NCBI GenBank assembly: GCA_945865815.1
Contig: CAMBFR010000042.1
Coordinates: 1-33,099 of the forward strand
Source: Candidatus Sulfopaludibacter sp. SbA3
Lineage (GTDB): Bacteria; Acidobacteriota; Terriglobia; 20CM-2-55-15
DNA length: 33,099 nucleotides
Reading direction: 5' to 3'
Part shown: in pieces, positions 3,269 through 16,137 of the stretch
Position numbering within the stretch: the first letter of the stretch is position 1
Layout: each line of letters starts with the position of its first letter
Position numbers and translations under genes: made by a program
Notes under the pieces: model-generated
What the model was told of the DNA's origin: nothing
Seen by the model: the letters and a program-made list of their open reading frames with translations, nothing else
Database searches by the model: none

Positions 3269-3841
3269 ATGGTTGTATTACAGCGCAACGAAGTGAATCG
3301 AAATCATACTGTTTATGTCCTGGCGGCGCTTATGGCTGCCTCTGTTCTGCTGGGCGTGATTCTCACCTACTCAGGCCGTTCCGGAGCCCTCCAGATCGCG
3401 CTCGTACTGCTCGCCACCAGCGCCGTGGCGACTCTTGTGCTTGCAGGACTTCAGTTCCTGACTTCTCCGAAACGTAGCCAGGCGCTGATCTTCTATCGAG
3501 ATGACAGCATGGTCGTCGCGACCAATGCGCTTCATGAAGGGTTCAAGCTGCGGTATCTCCGCGACATCCTCGGCGAAACCGTGTCCGCATTCAGCGACGA
3601 GGACCGCCTGCACTGGAAGGATCTGGAAGCCGACGGATTCTACGCCGGCATCTGTACTCGCGGGGCCCGCAGGCTGGTGGTGACCCGCCTTTGCACGATG
3701 ATATTCGATGATGTTTTCGTGAGCGACCAACATGGCCGGTGGGAATACTTCGACTCATCCTGCACCGCCGACCCCTCATTCTCGAAGCGCGTGACGCCGC
3801 CGCTCAAACGGTGGAAAGGAATGCCGATCGAGCAAGGCTGA
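3269..3841 (+). CDS. Hypothetical membrane-anchored protein
   Basis: This 190-residue protein is not recognised. It has two hydrophobic segments, about residues 14-35 and 41-65, separated by a short loop (YSGRSGA), and then a soluble C-terminal domain of about 120 residues containing four Cys (GICTRG, RLCTM, SSCTA regions). With a positively charged N-terminus the soluble domain is probably cytoplasmic, though topology is inferred. It has its own promoter (TATAAT at 3233) and ribosome binding site. The stop codon lies inside a 9-bp tandem repeat (3835-3873), so changes in repeat number would move 3' sequence but not alter the protein. Confidence 0.7.
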   Translation: MVVLQRNEVNRNHTVYVLAALMAASVLLGVILTYSGRSGALQIALVLLATSAVATLVLAGLQFLTSPKRSQALIFYRDDSMVVATNALHEGFKLRYLRDILGETVSAFSDEDRLHWKDLEADGFYAGICTRGARRLVVTRLCTMIFDDVFVSDQHGRWEYFDSSCTADPSFSKRVTPPLKRWKGMPIEQG

Positions 3842-3873
3842 TCAGGCTGATCAGGCTGATCAGGCTGATCAGG
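3835..3873. repeat. 9-bp tandem repeat (ATCAGGCTG)
   Basis: Three perfect copies of ATCAGGCTG (3841-3867) are flanked by partial copies (AGGCTG at 3835-3840, ATCAGG at 3868-3873). Each unit contains the palindrome TGATCA. The stop codon of the upstream gene (3839-3841) is part of the array. The unit length of nine matches the second tandem array at 9621-9665. Confidence 0.95.
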
Positions 3874-3935: not shown

Positions 3936-3965
3936 TTGACGGCCAGCGCGGCGGCGCGCTAAGTT
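3936..3965 (+). promoter_or_regulatory. Possible promoter of the riboswitch-controlled operon
   Basis: TTGACG (3936-3941) is a near-consensus -35 box, followed after 18 nt by TAAGTT (3960-3965), a weak -10. It would start transcription near 3972, about 30 nt before the riboswitch aptamer. The sequence between is T-rich. The -10 match is poor, so another start site in the T-rich stretch is possible. Confidence 0.35.
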
Positions 3966-4000: not shown

Positions 4001-4048
4001 TACGTGGCGATTTAAGGCAACTTGCTCCACGTAAAAAACTGCTAAACA
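4001..4048 (+). promoter_or_regulatory. SAM-II (SAM_alpha) riboswitch aptamer
   Basis: A 7-bp perfect stem (TACGTGG 4001-4007 with CCACGTA 4027-4033) encloses a 19-nt loop that begins CGATTT and ends CTTGCT. An A-rich stretch and GCTAAA (4041-4046) follow. These are the conserved parts of the SAM-II pseudoknot: GTGG, GATTT, CTTGC, CCACG, an AAA run, then GCTAAA, where the loop TTGC faces GCTAA. Order and spacing agree with the family as I remember it. SAM binding would fold the pseudoknot and reduce expression of the downstream threonine-synthase-like/ThiS-like operon. The terminator at 4063-4097 suggests transcriptional control. No covariance model could be run. Confidence 0.75.
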
Positions 4049-4062
4049 ATCCACAAGGGTTC

Positions 4063-4097
4063 AAAAAAGCCCCGTGCCGTTTGGCGCGGGGCTTTTT
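4063..4097 (+). terminator. Intrinsic terminator of the riboswitch leader
   Basis: A 10-bp stem, GCCCCGTGCC (4069-4078) with GGCGCGGGGC (4083-4092) and one G-T wobble, has a GTTT loop and is followed by TTTTT. Preceding A residues extend the stem and make it potentially bidirectional. It lies between the SAM-II aptamer and the ATG at 4127 (GGAGG ribosome binding site just after it). This is the usual place for a riboswitch expression platform. Confidence 0.9.
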
Positions 4098-4126: not shown

Positions 4127-5365
4127 ATGGGCTTCGTCAAAGGGCTCCGGTGCCGCGAATGCGGACGTATATATCCCGCCAGGCTCCTGGCCGGGTGTGA
4201 GGACTGCTTTGGTCCTCTCGAGGTTGATTACAACTACGAAGGCATCAAGGGCGTGCTGTCACGAGAAGTGATTGCGTCCCGCCCACGGTCGATGTGGAAG
4301 TACCAGGAGCTTCTGCCGCTGGATAACCCGCCGGTAGTGGGACTCTCGAGCGGCGGCACTCCCCTTGTTCGCGCCAGGCGCCTTGGCCGCGCCCTCGGCC
4401 TCGATAACGTCTACGTGAAGAACGACAGCGTTAGCTCGCCCACACTTTCGTTCAAGGATCGGGTGACCGGGGTCGCCATTAACAAGGCGATCGAGTTCAA
4501 ACTCGAGGCGGTAGGCTGCGCCTCCACGGGAAATCTTGCGAACTCCGTGGCCGCTAACGCCGCGGCGGCCGGCATTCCCTCTTTCATCCTGATTCCGGAA
4601 AATCTGGAACAGGCCAAGATCACCACAACCGCGGTTTTTGGCTCGCGCCTGATCGCCGTGAGAGGAAACTACGACGATGTGAACCGCCTTTGCAGCCAGA
4701 TTGCGGATCGGCATCCATGGGGATTCGTGAACGTCAACCTTCGCCCCTACTATGCCGAAGGTTCCAAGACGTTCGGTTTTGAAATCGCCGAAGACCTCGA
4801 CTGGCGGGCCCCTGCCGCGATCGTCGTGCCCATGGCCGGCGGGTCTCTGATCTCGAAGCTCTACAAGGGTCTTCACGAACTCGAGCAACTGGGGCTGCTG
4901 AAGGCGCCGCTGCACACCCGGCTCTACGGAGCTCAGGCAACCGGCTGCAATCCGATTACAGCCGCGGTCAAGAAAGGGTCGGCGGAGATCCAGCCTGTGA
5001 AACCCAATACCATAGCCAAGTCCCTCGCCATCGGAAATCCCGCCGATGGATACTACGCGGCGCGATTGATGGTGAAGAGCGGAGGATGGGGAGAGGATGC
5101 TTCCGATGAAGAAATCGTGGCCGGCATCCATCTGCTCGCCGAAACTGAAGGAATTTTTACCGAGACCGCAGGCGGCGTCACGATTGCCGTAACGAAAAAA
5201 CTGATTGCACAGGGACGACTGAAACGCGACGAACTGACCGTGCTCGCCATAACCGGCAACGGCCTGAAGACGCTCGACGCTATACCCGTCGCCCGTCCCG
5301 AAGTGATTGAACCCCGGCTGGCCGCCTTCGAAGCATTAATTGGAGGTAAGTCTAATGTCGCTTAA
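4127..5365 (+). CDS. Threonine synthase-like PLP enzyme, probable sulfur amino acid role
   Basis: This 412-residue fold-type II PLP enzyme is of the threonine synthase family. An N-terminal zinc ribbon is visible (Cys9, Cys12, Cys24, Cys27), then the PLP-lysine motif SPTLSFKDR (Lys110), a phosphate-binding CASTGN loop at about 131-136, [11 protein letters not shown], and [16 protein letters not shown]. True threonine synthases convert O-phosphohomoserine to threonine. Three facts point elsewhere: a SAM-II-like riboswitch and terminator precede the gene, the next gene is a ThiS-like carrier with a C-terminal Gly-Gly overlapping by 11 nt, and no hom or thrB is nearby. I infer that it may replace the phosphate of O-phosphohomoserine or O-phosphoserine with sulfur delivered by the carrier. 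The start follows GGAGG at normal spacing. Fold confidence is high; the reaction is uncertain. Confidence 0.9.
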
Positions 5366-5630
5366 GGTGATCATTCCTACCCCACTGCGCCGGTTCACAT
5401 CCGGAGCAGAGCTCGTTGAACTCGAGCCCGGAACCGTCCGCGAAATTCTGGACCGCCTCGAAACACGCTATCCCGGATTCCGGGCAAGCGTGTGTGACGA
5501 ATCGGGATCCCTGAAAAGGTTCATCAATATATATGTCGACGGCGAAGACATCCGTTTTCTCGACAATCTCGGCACCCCCACAAAGGACGGCTCGGAAATC
5601 GCCATAGTGCCTGCCATCTCAGGCGGCTGA
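5355..5630 (+). CDS. ThiS/MoaD-like sulfur carrier protein
   Basis: This 91-residue beta-grasp protein of the MoaD/ThiS/CysO type ends in PAISGG. The free C-terminal Gly-Gly is the feature that is adenylated by a ThiF/MoeB-type enzyme and turned into a thiocarboxylate. Other family marks are [19 protein letters not shown] and [13 protein letters not shown]. The start is the ATG at 5355, with GGAGG (5342-5346) eight bases upstream; it overlaps the 3' end of the threonine-synthase-like gene by 11 nt, implying coupling and stoichiometric expression. By analogy with CysO-CysM it is probably the sulfur donor for that enzyme. A role in molybdopterin or thiamine synthesis is less likely, since no moa or thi genes adjoin it. 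The activating enzyme is not in this window. Confidence 0.88.
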
Positions 5631-13380: not shown

Positions 13381-13386
13381 TAGAAT
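13381..13386 (+). promoter_or_regulatory. -10 box of a leaderless promoter (M16 operon)
   Basis: TAGAAT ends seven bases before the ATG at 13394. It overlaps an upstream ATG at 13385, which would then be outside the transcript. No ribosome binding site is present for either start. Confidence 0.45.
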
Positions 13387-13393
13387 GGCCGCG

Positions 13394-14731
13394 ATGATCC
13401 TACTGCCGTCCCTTCGCCGCACGCTTTTTTGCGTACTTTTGGCGTTTCCTGCGGCCGTGCCCGCCCTCGCACAGGACTACGGCATCCAGACTTACACGCT
13501 GAAGAACGGCATGAAGATTCTCGTCGAGGAGGATCATTCCATCCCGAATATCGCCCTGTACATCTTCTACAAGATCGGATCCCGCAACGAGCGGCCGGGC
13601 ACGACCGGGATTTCGCACTTCTTCGAGCACATGATGTTCAATGGCTCGCAGAAATACGGGCCCAAACAATTCGATGAAACCATGGAAGCGGCGGGAGGTT
13701 CGAACAACGCTTATACGAGCAATGATCTCACCGTCTATCAGGACTGGTTTCCACGGTCCGCATTGGAAAAGGTTTTCGACCTCGAGGCCGACCGTATTCA
13801 CAACCTGAGCCTCGACGAAAAAATGATCGAGTCCGAGCGGGGCGTCGTGGCGTCGGAGCGGCGCTCATCCGTCGACGCGAACAATTCCGGCCTTCTCCAG
13901 GAACAACTGGAAGCGGCCGCCTACACGGCTCACCCTTATCAATGGCCTGTTGTCGGCTGGATGGCCGACATCGAGAGCTGGACCATGGAAGACCTGAAAC
14001 GTCATTTTGAGATCGGCTACTCGCCCGCAAACGCGACAATGGTCGTCGTGGGCGATGTAACCGGCGCGGAAATTCTGCGGCTCGCACAACGATATATGGA
14101 GCCCATTCCCTCGCGCGGTTTGCCTCCGCCGGTCACGACCCGCGAGCCGGAACAACTCGGAGAACGCCGCACCATCGTCAGGAAATTCGCCCAATTGCCG
14201 CTCGTGATGATTGCGTACCATACGCCGGAATCCGCCCATCGCGACTATTACGCGCTGCAGGTTCTGCGAACGATCCTCTTCGATGGCGAGAGCTCACGCA
14301 TGTACAAACGGCTTGTAGACCAGGATCAACTCGCGATATCTGTTCGCGGCAGTTACGGATTCGCATTCGATCCCACCCTATTCCGGATCACGGCGCAGCC
14401 CAAAGCAGGGATCCGGCCGGAGACCGTCGAAAACGCAATCTATGAAGAGTTGAATCGCCTCAGAGAAGGGCTCGTCACCGACCAGGAAATTCAGAAAGCG
14501 AAAAACATTCTGCTGGCCGATTTCTACCGCCGCATGAAAACGATCAGCGGAAAGGCCAATGCCCTGGGCAACTACGAGATGTTCTTTGGAAATTATCGAA
14601 AAATGTTTACGGCGGCAGACGACTTCAATCGGGTCACAAAGGAAGATGTACAGCGCATCGTGCGCACGTACTTTACGGACAGGAATCGGACGGTAGCCAC
14701 GCTGGCGCCCGAGAACGGAGGCGCGCAATGA
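13394..14731 (+). CDS. M16 family zinc peptidase (active subunit)
   Basis: This secreted insulinase/pitrilysin-type metallopeptidase has about 445 residues. The signal peptide is MILLPSLRRT plus a hydrophobic run ending PALAQ. The inverted zinc motif HxxEH is present in GISHFFEHMMFNG (His75, Glu78, His79), and the third ligand Glu155 lies 76 residues later in ESERGVVASERR. It probably forms a clamshell heterodimer with the next gene, whose ATG overlaps this stop by 4 nt. Such periplasmic pairs degrade peptides. The start at 13394 fits the -10 box TAGAAT at 13381; an ATG at 13385 adds three residues. Confidence 0.93.
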   Translation: MILLPSLRRTLFCVLLAFPAAVPALAQDYGIQTYTLKNGMKILVEEDHSIPNIALYIFYKIGSRNERPGTTGISHFFEHMMFNGSQKYGPKQFDETMEAAGGSNNAYTSNDLTVYQDWFPRSALEKVFDLEADRIHNLSLDEKMIESERGVVASERRSSVDANNSGLLQEQLEAAAYTAHPYQWPVVGWMADIESWTMEDLKRHFEIGYSPANATMVVVGDVTGAEILRLAQRYMEPIPSRGLPPPVTTREPEQLGERRTIVRKFAQLPLVMIAYHTPESAHRDYYALQVLRTILFDGESSRMYKRLVDQDQLAISVRGSYGFAFDPTLFRITAQPKAGIRPETVENAIYEELNRLREGLVTDQEIQKAKNILLADFYRRMKTISGKANALGNYEMFFGNYRKMFTAADDFNRVTKEDVQRIVRTYFTDRNRTVATLAPENGGAQ

Positions 14732-16137
14732 TGAAAATGCCGCGAAGAGCTCTGCTGGCTGGAGCGGCCATGGCGCTTGCGAATTCCTGGATGTACGCGC
14801 AGACGGATCCGGCGAGACCCCTCGTCCCGCCTTACGAAAAGATCCAGCTACGGAACGGCGTGACGCTGTTGCTCATGGAGCAGCATGAAGTGCCGATCGT
14901 CAGTTTCAATGTGATCGTCAAGGCCGGCTCTGTCGCGGACCCCATGGGGAAGGAGGGCGTCGCGTCGCTGACGGCCGACTTGCTTCGCAAGGGGACGACG
15001 GCGCGAACCGCGGATCAAATCGCCGTGGATCTCGACTTCATCGGCGGCGATTTCGATGTCAACGCCGCGCTGGATTTCACGAGCGCGAGCGCGGAATTTC
15101 TGGCCAAAGACCTCGGCCAGGGCCTCGATCTTGTGGCGGAAGTGCTCACGAAGCCGTCTTTTGCCCAGGCAGAGTTCGACAAGCTGCTGCAGCAGCGCAT
15201 CAACGGAATCAAGTCGGCAAAGGATCAGGCGTCCAACGTCATTGCGAGATACTTCAATGCGTACCTTTACGGATCGCATCCGTATGGGCGCCCCGTCGGC
15301 GGGGACGAAACATCGCTGGCCGGAGTACGCCGCGAAGATGTGGTGAATTTTTACCAGACCTATTACTCGGCGGCCAATGTGATCATCGCGGCCGTGGGAG
15401 ACTTTCGGATTCCCGAAATGCGGCGCCTGCTCGAGTCACGATTCGATTCCTGGCCGGCAAAATCGGCGCCGCAAACGCAGGTTTCAGAGCCCGAACCCGT
15501 GCGCGGCAAGCGAGTGCTCCTGGTCGACAAACCCGACTCGACGCAAACCTACTTTTACATCGGTAATCTGGGCATCCGCCGCACCGATCCCGATCGCGTA
15601 GCGGTCGCGGTTGTCAACACGCTGTTCGGCGGCCGGTTCACTTCGCGGCTCAACACGGCGCTCCGCGTGGACTCGGGCCTGACGTATGGCGCGTCATCGC
15701 AGTTCGATCAGAGACAGCATCGGGGTCCGTTCCAGATCTCGACCTACACTCGAAACGAATCCACCGAGAAAGCCATCGATATGGCGCTCGAAATCCTGAA
15801 AGCGCTCCACGAGCAGGGCGTAACAGATGCAGAACTGCAATCGGTCAAGACCTACATGAAGGGCCAGTTCCCACCCACGATCGAAACATCCGATCGCCTC
15901 GCCTCGAATATCGCCCGGCTGGAGTTCTATGGCCTCGATAAGAGTGACGTGGATAGTTATTACGCGAAAGTGGATGCAGTAGATCAGGATGCCGCCCGCC
16001 GCATCATCCGGCAGCATTTCCCGCTGGAGAACCTGGCCCTGGTGCTGGTCGGCAAAGCGCCGGAGATCCGGCAGATCGCAGCGAAGTATTCGAGCGTTCC
16101 TCTCGACTTTAAATCCGTTGCCCAGCCTGGGTTCTAG
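14728..16137 (+). CDS. M16 family peptidase-like protein (non-catalytic partner)
   Basis: This 469-residue M16 homolog has a signal peptide (MKMPRRALLAG, ending MYAQ). At the place of the HxxEH motif it reads GVASLTADLLRKG, so zinc ligands are missing and it cannot be catalytic alone. The C-terminal M16 half is well preserved, with the substrate-binding Arg/Tyr region LNTALRVDSGLTYGASS. In other M16 dyads (mitochondrial processing peptidase, bacterial pairs) the inactive subunit supplies this region to complete the active site. The gene overlaps the active subunit by 4 nt and is followed by a terminator at 16159-16183, giving a self-contained two-gene operon. Confidence 0.92.
   Translation: MMKMPRRALLAGAAMALANSWMYAQTDPARPLVPPYEKIQLRNGVTLLLMEQHEVPIVSFNVIVKAGSVADPMGKEGVASLTADLLRKGTTARTADQIAVDLDFIGGDFDVNAALDFTSASAEFLAKDLGQGLDLVAEVLTKPSFAQAEFDKLLQQRINGIKSAKDQASNVIARYFNAYLYGSHPYGRPVGGDETSLAGVRREDVVNFYQTYYSAANVIIAAVGDFRIPEMRRLLESRFDSWPAKSAPQTQVSEPEPVRGKRVLLVDKPDSTQTYFYIGNLGIRRTDPDRVAVAVVNTLFGGRFTSRLNTALRVDSGLTYGASSQFDQRQHRGPFQISTYTRNESTEKAIDMALEILKALHEQGVTDAELQSVKTYMKGQFPPTIETSDRLASNIARLEFYGLDKSDVDSYYAKVDAVDQDAARRIIRQHFPLENLALVLVGKAPEIRQIAAKYSSVPLDFKSVAQPGF

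Follow-up and report, generated by a model that had tools for sequence, protein, structure and literature searches.

The SAM-II class (SAM_alpha) of S-adenosylmethionine (SAM) riboswitches controls metX, metY, and related genes, with a terminator following the aptamer in many cases (PMC2258182, PMC9373788), and a form with long loops (RF01726) is known from Bacteroidetes and marine sequences (PMC2864571). The base triples of the SAM-II crystal structure 2QWY include G8-C23-G42, U11-U21-A45, and U12-U20-A46 (PMC3764141). Tandem arrangements have been reported as SAM-II/SAM-V in Pelagibacter (PMC11508383) and as tandem SAM riboswitches in Bacillota (PMC12452182). As far as their work is related in PMC12172450, Hasebe et al. 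(2024) described MetM as a Streptomyces homocysteine synthase using O-phosphohomoserine; by the same account, S. albulus carries a SAM riboswitch 5′ of metM as well as the sulfur-carrier gene metO.

The window, which is the whole 33,099-nucleotide stretch of Acidobacteriota DNA that was analysed, contains a related arrangement (Table 1). An Acidobacteriota sub-type of the SAM-II-class riboswitch very probably controls metM-metO here by transcription attenuation, as end-product feedback; this model draws on sequence, conservation, covariation, and genomic context, from which we infer that SAM binds, that transcription terminates in the cell, and that the enzymes have the proposed activity. The original prediction had placed a SAM-II-class element at this site, with a 7-bp stem around a 19-nt loop, GATTT, CTTGC, an A run, and GCTAAA, and all of these blocks are present at coordinates correct within 1-2 bases. 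The P1 strands are TACGTGG (4001-4007) and CCACGTA (4027-4033), enclosing the loop at 4008-4026 with CTTGC at 4021-4025, and the A run (4033-4038) lies 3′ of P1, ahead of GCTAAA. Single bases act as spacers, with C4008 between P1 and GATTT and T4026 between TTGC and P1, and the linker ahead of GCTAAA is short.

Table 1. Features of the metM-metO leader and operon in the window.
Feature	Position	Strand	Evidence
Probable promoter: TTGACG, 16-nt spacer, GCTAAG (weak -10)	3936..3963	+	by eye; weak evidence
P1 stem and 19-nt loop	4001..4033	+	sequence; covariation of the stem (101 distinct homologues)
GATTT, major-groove strand of the SAM pocket (G8-U12 in the SAM-II crystal structure)	4009..4013	+	mapping on 2QWY triples
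P2b pseudoknot, 5′ strand: TTGC (U20-C23)	4022..4025	+	sequence
P2b pseudoknot, 3′ strand: GCTAAA (G42-A47); doubles as one side of the proposed antiterminator	4041..4046	+	complementarity to 4079-4085
Intrinsic terminator hairpin: 15-pair stem, GTTT loop, U tract	4064..4097	+	fold
GTTTGGC anti-aptamer segment, terminator loop and 3′ arm	4079..4085	+	complementary to 4041-4047 GCTAAAC
metM-like, PLP enzyme with a threonine synthase annotation; probably a homocysteine synthase that uses O-phosphohomoserine	4127..5365	+	TIGR00260; Nonomuraea orthologue beside MetO homologue; tree
metO-like, ThiS/MoaD-family sulfur carrier ending in GG	5355..5630	+	PF02597, 58.8 bits

Upstream of the aptamer, a TTGAC element with a better -10 recurs in relatives at the same distance as in the window, where a consensus scan called neither the promoter at 3936..3963 nor the hairpin at 4064-4097. 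A perfect 9-bp tandem repeat of AGGCTGATC (4.3 copies, 3835-3873) was also observed; it spans the stop codon of the ORF at 3269-3841 and reaches the space before the metM promoter.

Downstream, a threonine-synthase-like gene adjoins that of a ThiS/MoaD-family carrier with a C-terminal GG, whose best solved relatives are 4n6e and CysO (3dwg), and almost every SAM-II locus with sufficient sequence has metO next to metM. A Nonomuraea orthologue (MetM 51.6% identical) stands in the order SAM-I, metM, MetO homologue. O-phosphohomoserine is probably the substrate from which MetM and MetO form homocysteine, the sulfur being delivered as a carrier thiocarboxylate. Indirect support for this route comes from the window's own genome, which encodes homoserine kinase (ThrB) and a rhodanese-ThiF protein (a candidate loader, its rhodanese part read from the sequence), while a search of it for MetX and MetA found neither; an alternative homocysteine route may nevertheless exist, since a cystathionine gamma-lyase/synthase-like PLP enzyme is present. 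The regulon had been thought unexpected when the locus was first described, but this view has to be given up: the gene pair corresponds to MetM/MetO, a methionine pathway which, in the Streptomyces work cited above, is already placed behind a SAM riboswitch. Two adjacent M16-family peptidase genes lie elsewhere in the window (13385-16137).

The riboswitch could be as described and the enzyme still be a normal threonine synthase, or some other PLP sulfhydrylase, rather than a homocysteine synthase. The product does pass the TIGR00260 threonine synthase model with 264 bits (cut-off 167), and threonine synthase activity has been shown in vitro for a Microcystis homologue (PMC12172450). This reading is nonetheless unlikely, as the genome holds two further threonine-synthase-like genes and lacks a detected MetX or MetA as alternative route, the MetM clade is separate in the tree, and metM is nearly always found beside a GG-ending sulfur carrier and behind SAM-I or SAM-II.

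At Rfam gathering cut-offs, no RNA family was called in the window, and an RF00521 search of its genome gave no match; with relaxed thresholds, the window copy scored 21.7 bits with RF01726 (cut-off 44) and 20.7 bits with RF00521 (cut-off 36). Other Acidobacteriota homologues do pass RF00521, namely L098 (43.2 bits), L163 (42.0 bits), and L138 (36.3 bits), the latter two being metM loci, while L017 scores 34.6 bits. The null result in the window and its genome is thus taken as a sensitivity limit, and the window copy is a diverged member whose relatives Rfam recognises: it is assigned to the SAM-II class through homology to copies that pass RF00521 and is not called a member of RF00521 itself. 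The covariance search proposed with the original prediction therefore went against this single copy and in favour of its homologues at the same gene, and the sub-threshold score does not refute the class because those homologues pass, no pocket base is missing, and P1 shows covariation. Sub-threshold matches to F6, Thr_leader, Leu_leader, and others at the locus, which rest mainly on the terminator hairpin, were rejected.

The pocket itself maps completely, every base of the published triples being found in the window copy by sequence mapping and kept in relatives. Thus, G8-C23-G42 corresponds to 4009/4025/4041, U11-U21-A45 to 4012/4023/4044, and U12-U20-A46 to 4013/4022/4045. GATTT is unchanged throughout alignment A1, and the P2b strands TTGC and GCTAAA are invariant in alignments A1 and A2. 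Folded on its own, the aptamer has an unremarkable minimum free energy (z -1.8), as expected, because the pseudoknot cannot be modelled.

A SAM-II fold with a different ligand or specificity (e.g., SAH), or an element nearer to SAM-V, would be suggested by a P1-to-GCTAAA stretch shorter than that of the crystallised SAM-II construct, and by the low score of this copy. Ligand shifts through few changes are also known in other riboswitch classes. Such a departure is very unlikely given the complete SAM-II pocket triples, targets that belong to methionine synthesis, which is repressed by SAM, and not to SAH recycling, the occurrence of SAM-I at the same site in sister families, and a SAM_V model that reported no match to the window even at E values up to 10.

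P1 is the part of the aptamer for which covariation can be read. Across 101 distinct homologues, one P1 pair occurs as C-G in 72, A-U in 15, U-G in 6, G-C in 2, and U-A in 1, and is unpaired in 5; sliding the partner columns destroyed the signal. Compensatory changes fall on the two outer pairs, which vary on both sides (21 cells versus 10.6 when shuffled). The inner four pairs never vary in alignment A2 and are not counted as evidence, since the search pattern fixed them. A covariation test in homologous leaders had been proposed for both helices; P1 shows the signal, and P2b gives none because TTGC and GCTAA are invariant.

The proposed switch depends on competition between the pseudoknot and an antiterminator for one strand. 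Briefly, with SAM bound, the TTGC/GCTAA pseudoknot would hold GCTAAAC (4041-4047) in the aptamer, leaving GTTTGGC free, so that the terminator forms and transcription stops; without SAM, GCTAAAC would pair with GTTTGGC, masking the terminator loop and the start of its 3′ arm, and transcription would continue into metM-metO. SAM-induced termination is predicted from this competition, and high SAM would most likely stop metM-metO transcription. Such a switch would amount to end-product feedback, since MetM and MetO probably make homocysteine.

The terminator is strong in its own right (-28.1 kcal/mol, z -6.7), none of 200 shuffles being as good. Its anti-aptamer segment and the aptamer strand change together in relatives, as GCTAAAT/ATTTAGC, GCTAAAC/GTTTAGC, and GCTAAAGAG/CTCTTTGGC, and this co-varying pairing makes the element look like a SAM-induced transcription OFF switch. 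Of 135 loci, 91 have TTTRGC no more than 130 nt downstream, compared with 7.6% of shuffled sequences; roughly one in three homologous loci lacks the exact anti-aptamer motif. For the adjoining pair, 63 of 80 distinct contexts are Watson-Crick where 28.5 would be expected, and 0 of 10000 permutations, uncorrected for kinship, reached the observed count. Family f5 follows the same logic through an unrelated terminator stem. An antitermination scheme in which the P1 strands pair with the terminator 5′ arm was dropped after folds of truncated transcripts gave inconsistent support. At loci L008 to L013, a segment 3′ of GCTAAA (CAGCTCGACAGGG in L008) was seen by eye to be complementary to one past the terminator (CCCTCTGTCGAAGCTG).

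Control could instead be mainly translational, like that of the SAM-II RNA from the Sargasso Sea, and the terminator would then be incidental. Some SAM-II RNAs do act on the ribosome-binding site (PMC9373788), and the last tandem copies of L016 and L017 have no clear terminator. In the window, however, some 70 nt separate the pseudoknot from the downstream ribosome-binding site, which is situated past the terminator, and the anti-aptamer is located in the terminator and co-varies, which makes such control here highly improbable.

Attenuation by a SAM-II-class riboswitch is also favoured by conservation. A nearly unchanged core lies 5′ of orthologous metM genes at 12 loci of families f1 and f8 and again in f5. 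MetM identity falls to 56-58% in f5 and the aptamer core is still kept; the element thus exceeds chance, as its core recurs before the orthologous gene despite this divergence. That a plain terminator at 4064-4097 merely ends an upstream transcript, with SAM-II-like letters that are fortuitous or come from another leader, fits the lack of an Rfam call at the gathering threshold in the window and the strength of the terminator alone, but is hardly credible for a core kept in three families and many genera before metM and other met genes, with relatives that pass RF00521 and with a co-varying P1 and anti-aptamer.

The metM orthologue is present in most relatives. A covariance model (R1) built from 16 copies matched 51 of 399 genomes of the class and, across the phylum, 47 of the 396 genomes sampled, covering 28 genera with at most four matches per genome, and it found one convincing copy in the window's own genome. 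A pattern scan of named genomes returned at least 115 stretches, of which 108 are labelled Acidobacteriota (Blastocatellia, Terriglobia, or unassigned), two Chlamydiota, and three unassigned bacteria; single records labelled Actinomycetota and Betaproteobacteria may both be mislabelled bins. The possibly unexpected host phylum of the original prediction also holds, the phylum being Acidobacteriota. Both Chlamydiota-labelled loci (L140 and L160) have the aptamer sub-type before a metX-like gene, which may be real or a binning error.

Among these same stretches (at least 115), the downstream gene encodes a MetY-type O-acetylhomoserine sulfhydrylase in 48, MetM in 32 plus L074 and L078, a bifunctional homocysteine methyltransferase/MTHFR in 9, MetX in 5, a nitrite/sulfite-reductase-like protein in 2, and aspartokinase in 1, with a few ambiguous; family assignments were checked on representatives, and the assignment of the aspartokinase (L123) relies only on its N-terminal letters. 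In genome G017, another copy stands before asd-lysC. This gene set, consisting mainly of methionine genes, fits a SAM sensor. The nitrite/sulfite-reductase-like cases (L087 5879 and L111 6513, Pyrinomonadaceae/Blastocatellia) hint at SAM-controlled sulfur assimilation.

SAM-I (RF00162) occupies the same site before metM in families f2, f3, f6, f7, f9, f10, and part of f5. Among 76 metM sequences, 39 have one SAM-II copy, 9 have two, 27 have SAM-I, and one (L138) has neither within 450 nt, because a short-chain dehydrogenase gene separates its tandem aptamers from metM. On the metM tree, SAM-II requires at least three changes, and a single clade of SAM-II-controlled metM is rejected (p-AU 5.9e-37, quick tree). 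With SAM-I on the outer branches, SAM-II probably replaced SAM-I at metM at least twice, and transfer of the whole operon could contribute to the pattern. At some loci, two SAM-II copies follow one another and the first has a terminator of its own; the window has one copy. At L016 and L017, the second, metM-proximal copy lacks a clear terminator of the anti-aptamer type and may act on translation or be decaying.

Barrick and Breaker saw no species with both SAM-I and SAM-II (PMC2258182). Genome G029 has both classes, SAM-II at metM and SAM-I at a NifS-type cysteine desulfurase; as a draft, it may contain a binning error. This desulfurase gene lies directly behind SAM-I (L218, 1857-3250), and its product could feed sulfur to MetO. 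On balance, it seems rather likely that the SAM-II sub-type, which largely escapes the Rfam cut-offs, serves Acidobacteriota as a major SAM sensor, and that at metM-metO the two classes were exchanged at least twice, with some genomes holding both and others tandem SAM-II attenuators. If true, this would offer a natural series for studying the replacement of one riboswitch class by another, a comparative set in which one gene is under two unrelated SAM sensors. It would also extend the SAM-II class to a soil-abundant phylum and explain the regulation of the little-studied MetM/MetO homocysteine route there. Because Rfam cut-offs miss many copies of the sub-type, SAM regulation in Acidobacteriota is probably under-annotated.

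Compared with SAM-II (RF00521), the element shares the H-type pseudoknot with P1, GATTT, TTGC, and GCTAAA as well as methionine gene targets, but differs in its occurrence in Acidobacteriota, in having one base (T) and not two between TTGC and P1, and in a loop and pre-GCTAAA linker that are shorter than the RF00521 consensus. It resembles RF01726 in the A run followed by TGCTAAA and in its best sub-threshold score of any SAM family, whereas its loop is short and that score falls below the cut-off. SAM-I (S box, RF00162) has the same expected ligand and the same site before orthologous metM in sister families, with an unrelated aptamer fold. Like S. albulus MetM/MetO, to the extent that the latter is described in PMC12172450, the window has a threonine-synthase homologue beside a sulfur carrier behind a SAM riboswitch, which here is of the SAM-II class. 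The Pelagibacter and Bacillota tandems likewise place two SAM aptamers in series, and some Acidobacteriota loci instead pair two SAM-II copies. None of the open-access papers searched describes SAM-II from Acidobacteriota, and such a description may exist elsewhere. Taken together, SAM-II itself, a SAM riboswitch at MetM/MetO, and SAM riboswitches in tandem are already known separately; SAM-II in Acidobacteriota and at metM, the tandem SAM-II copies, and the class swap are new.
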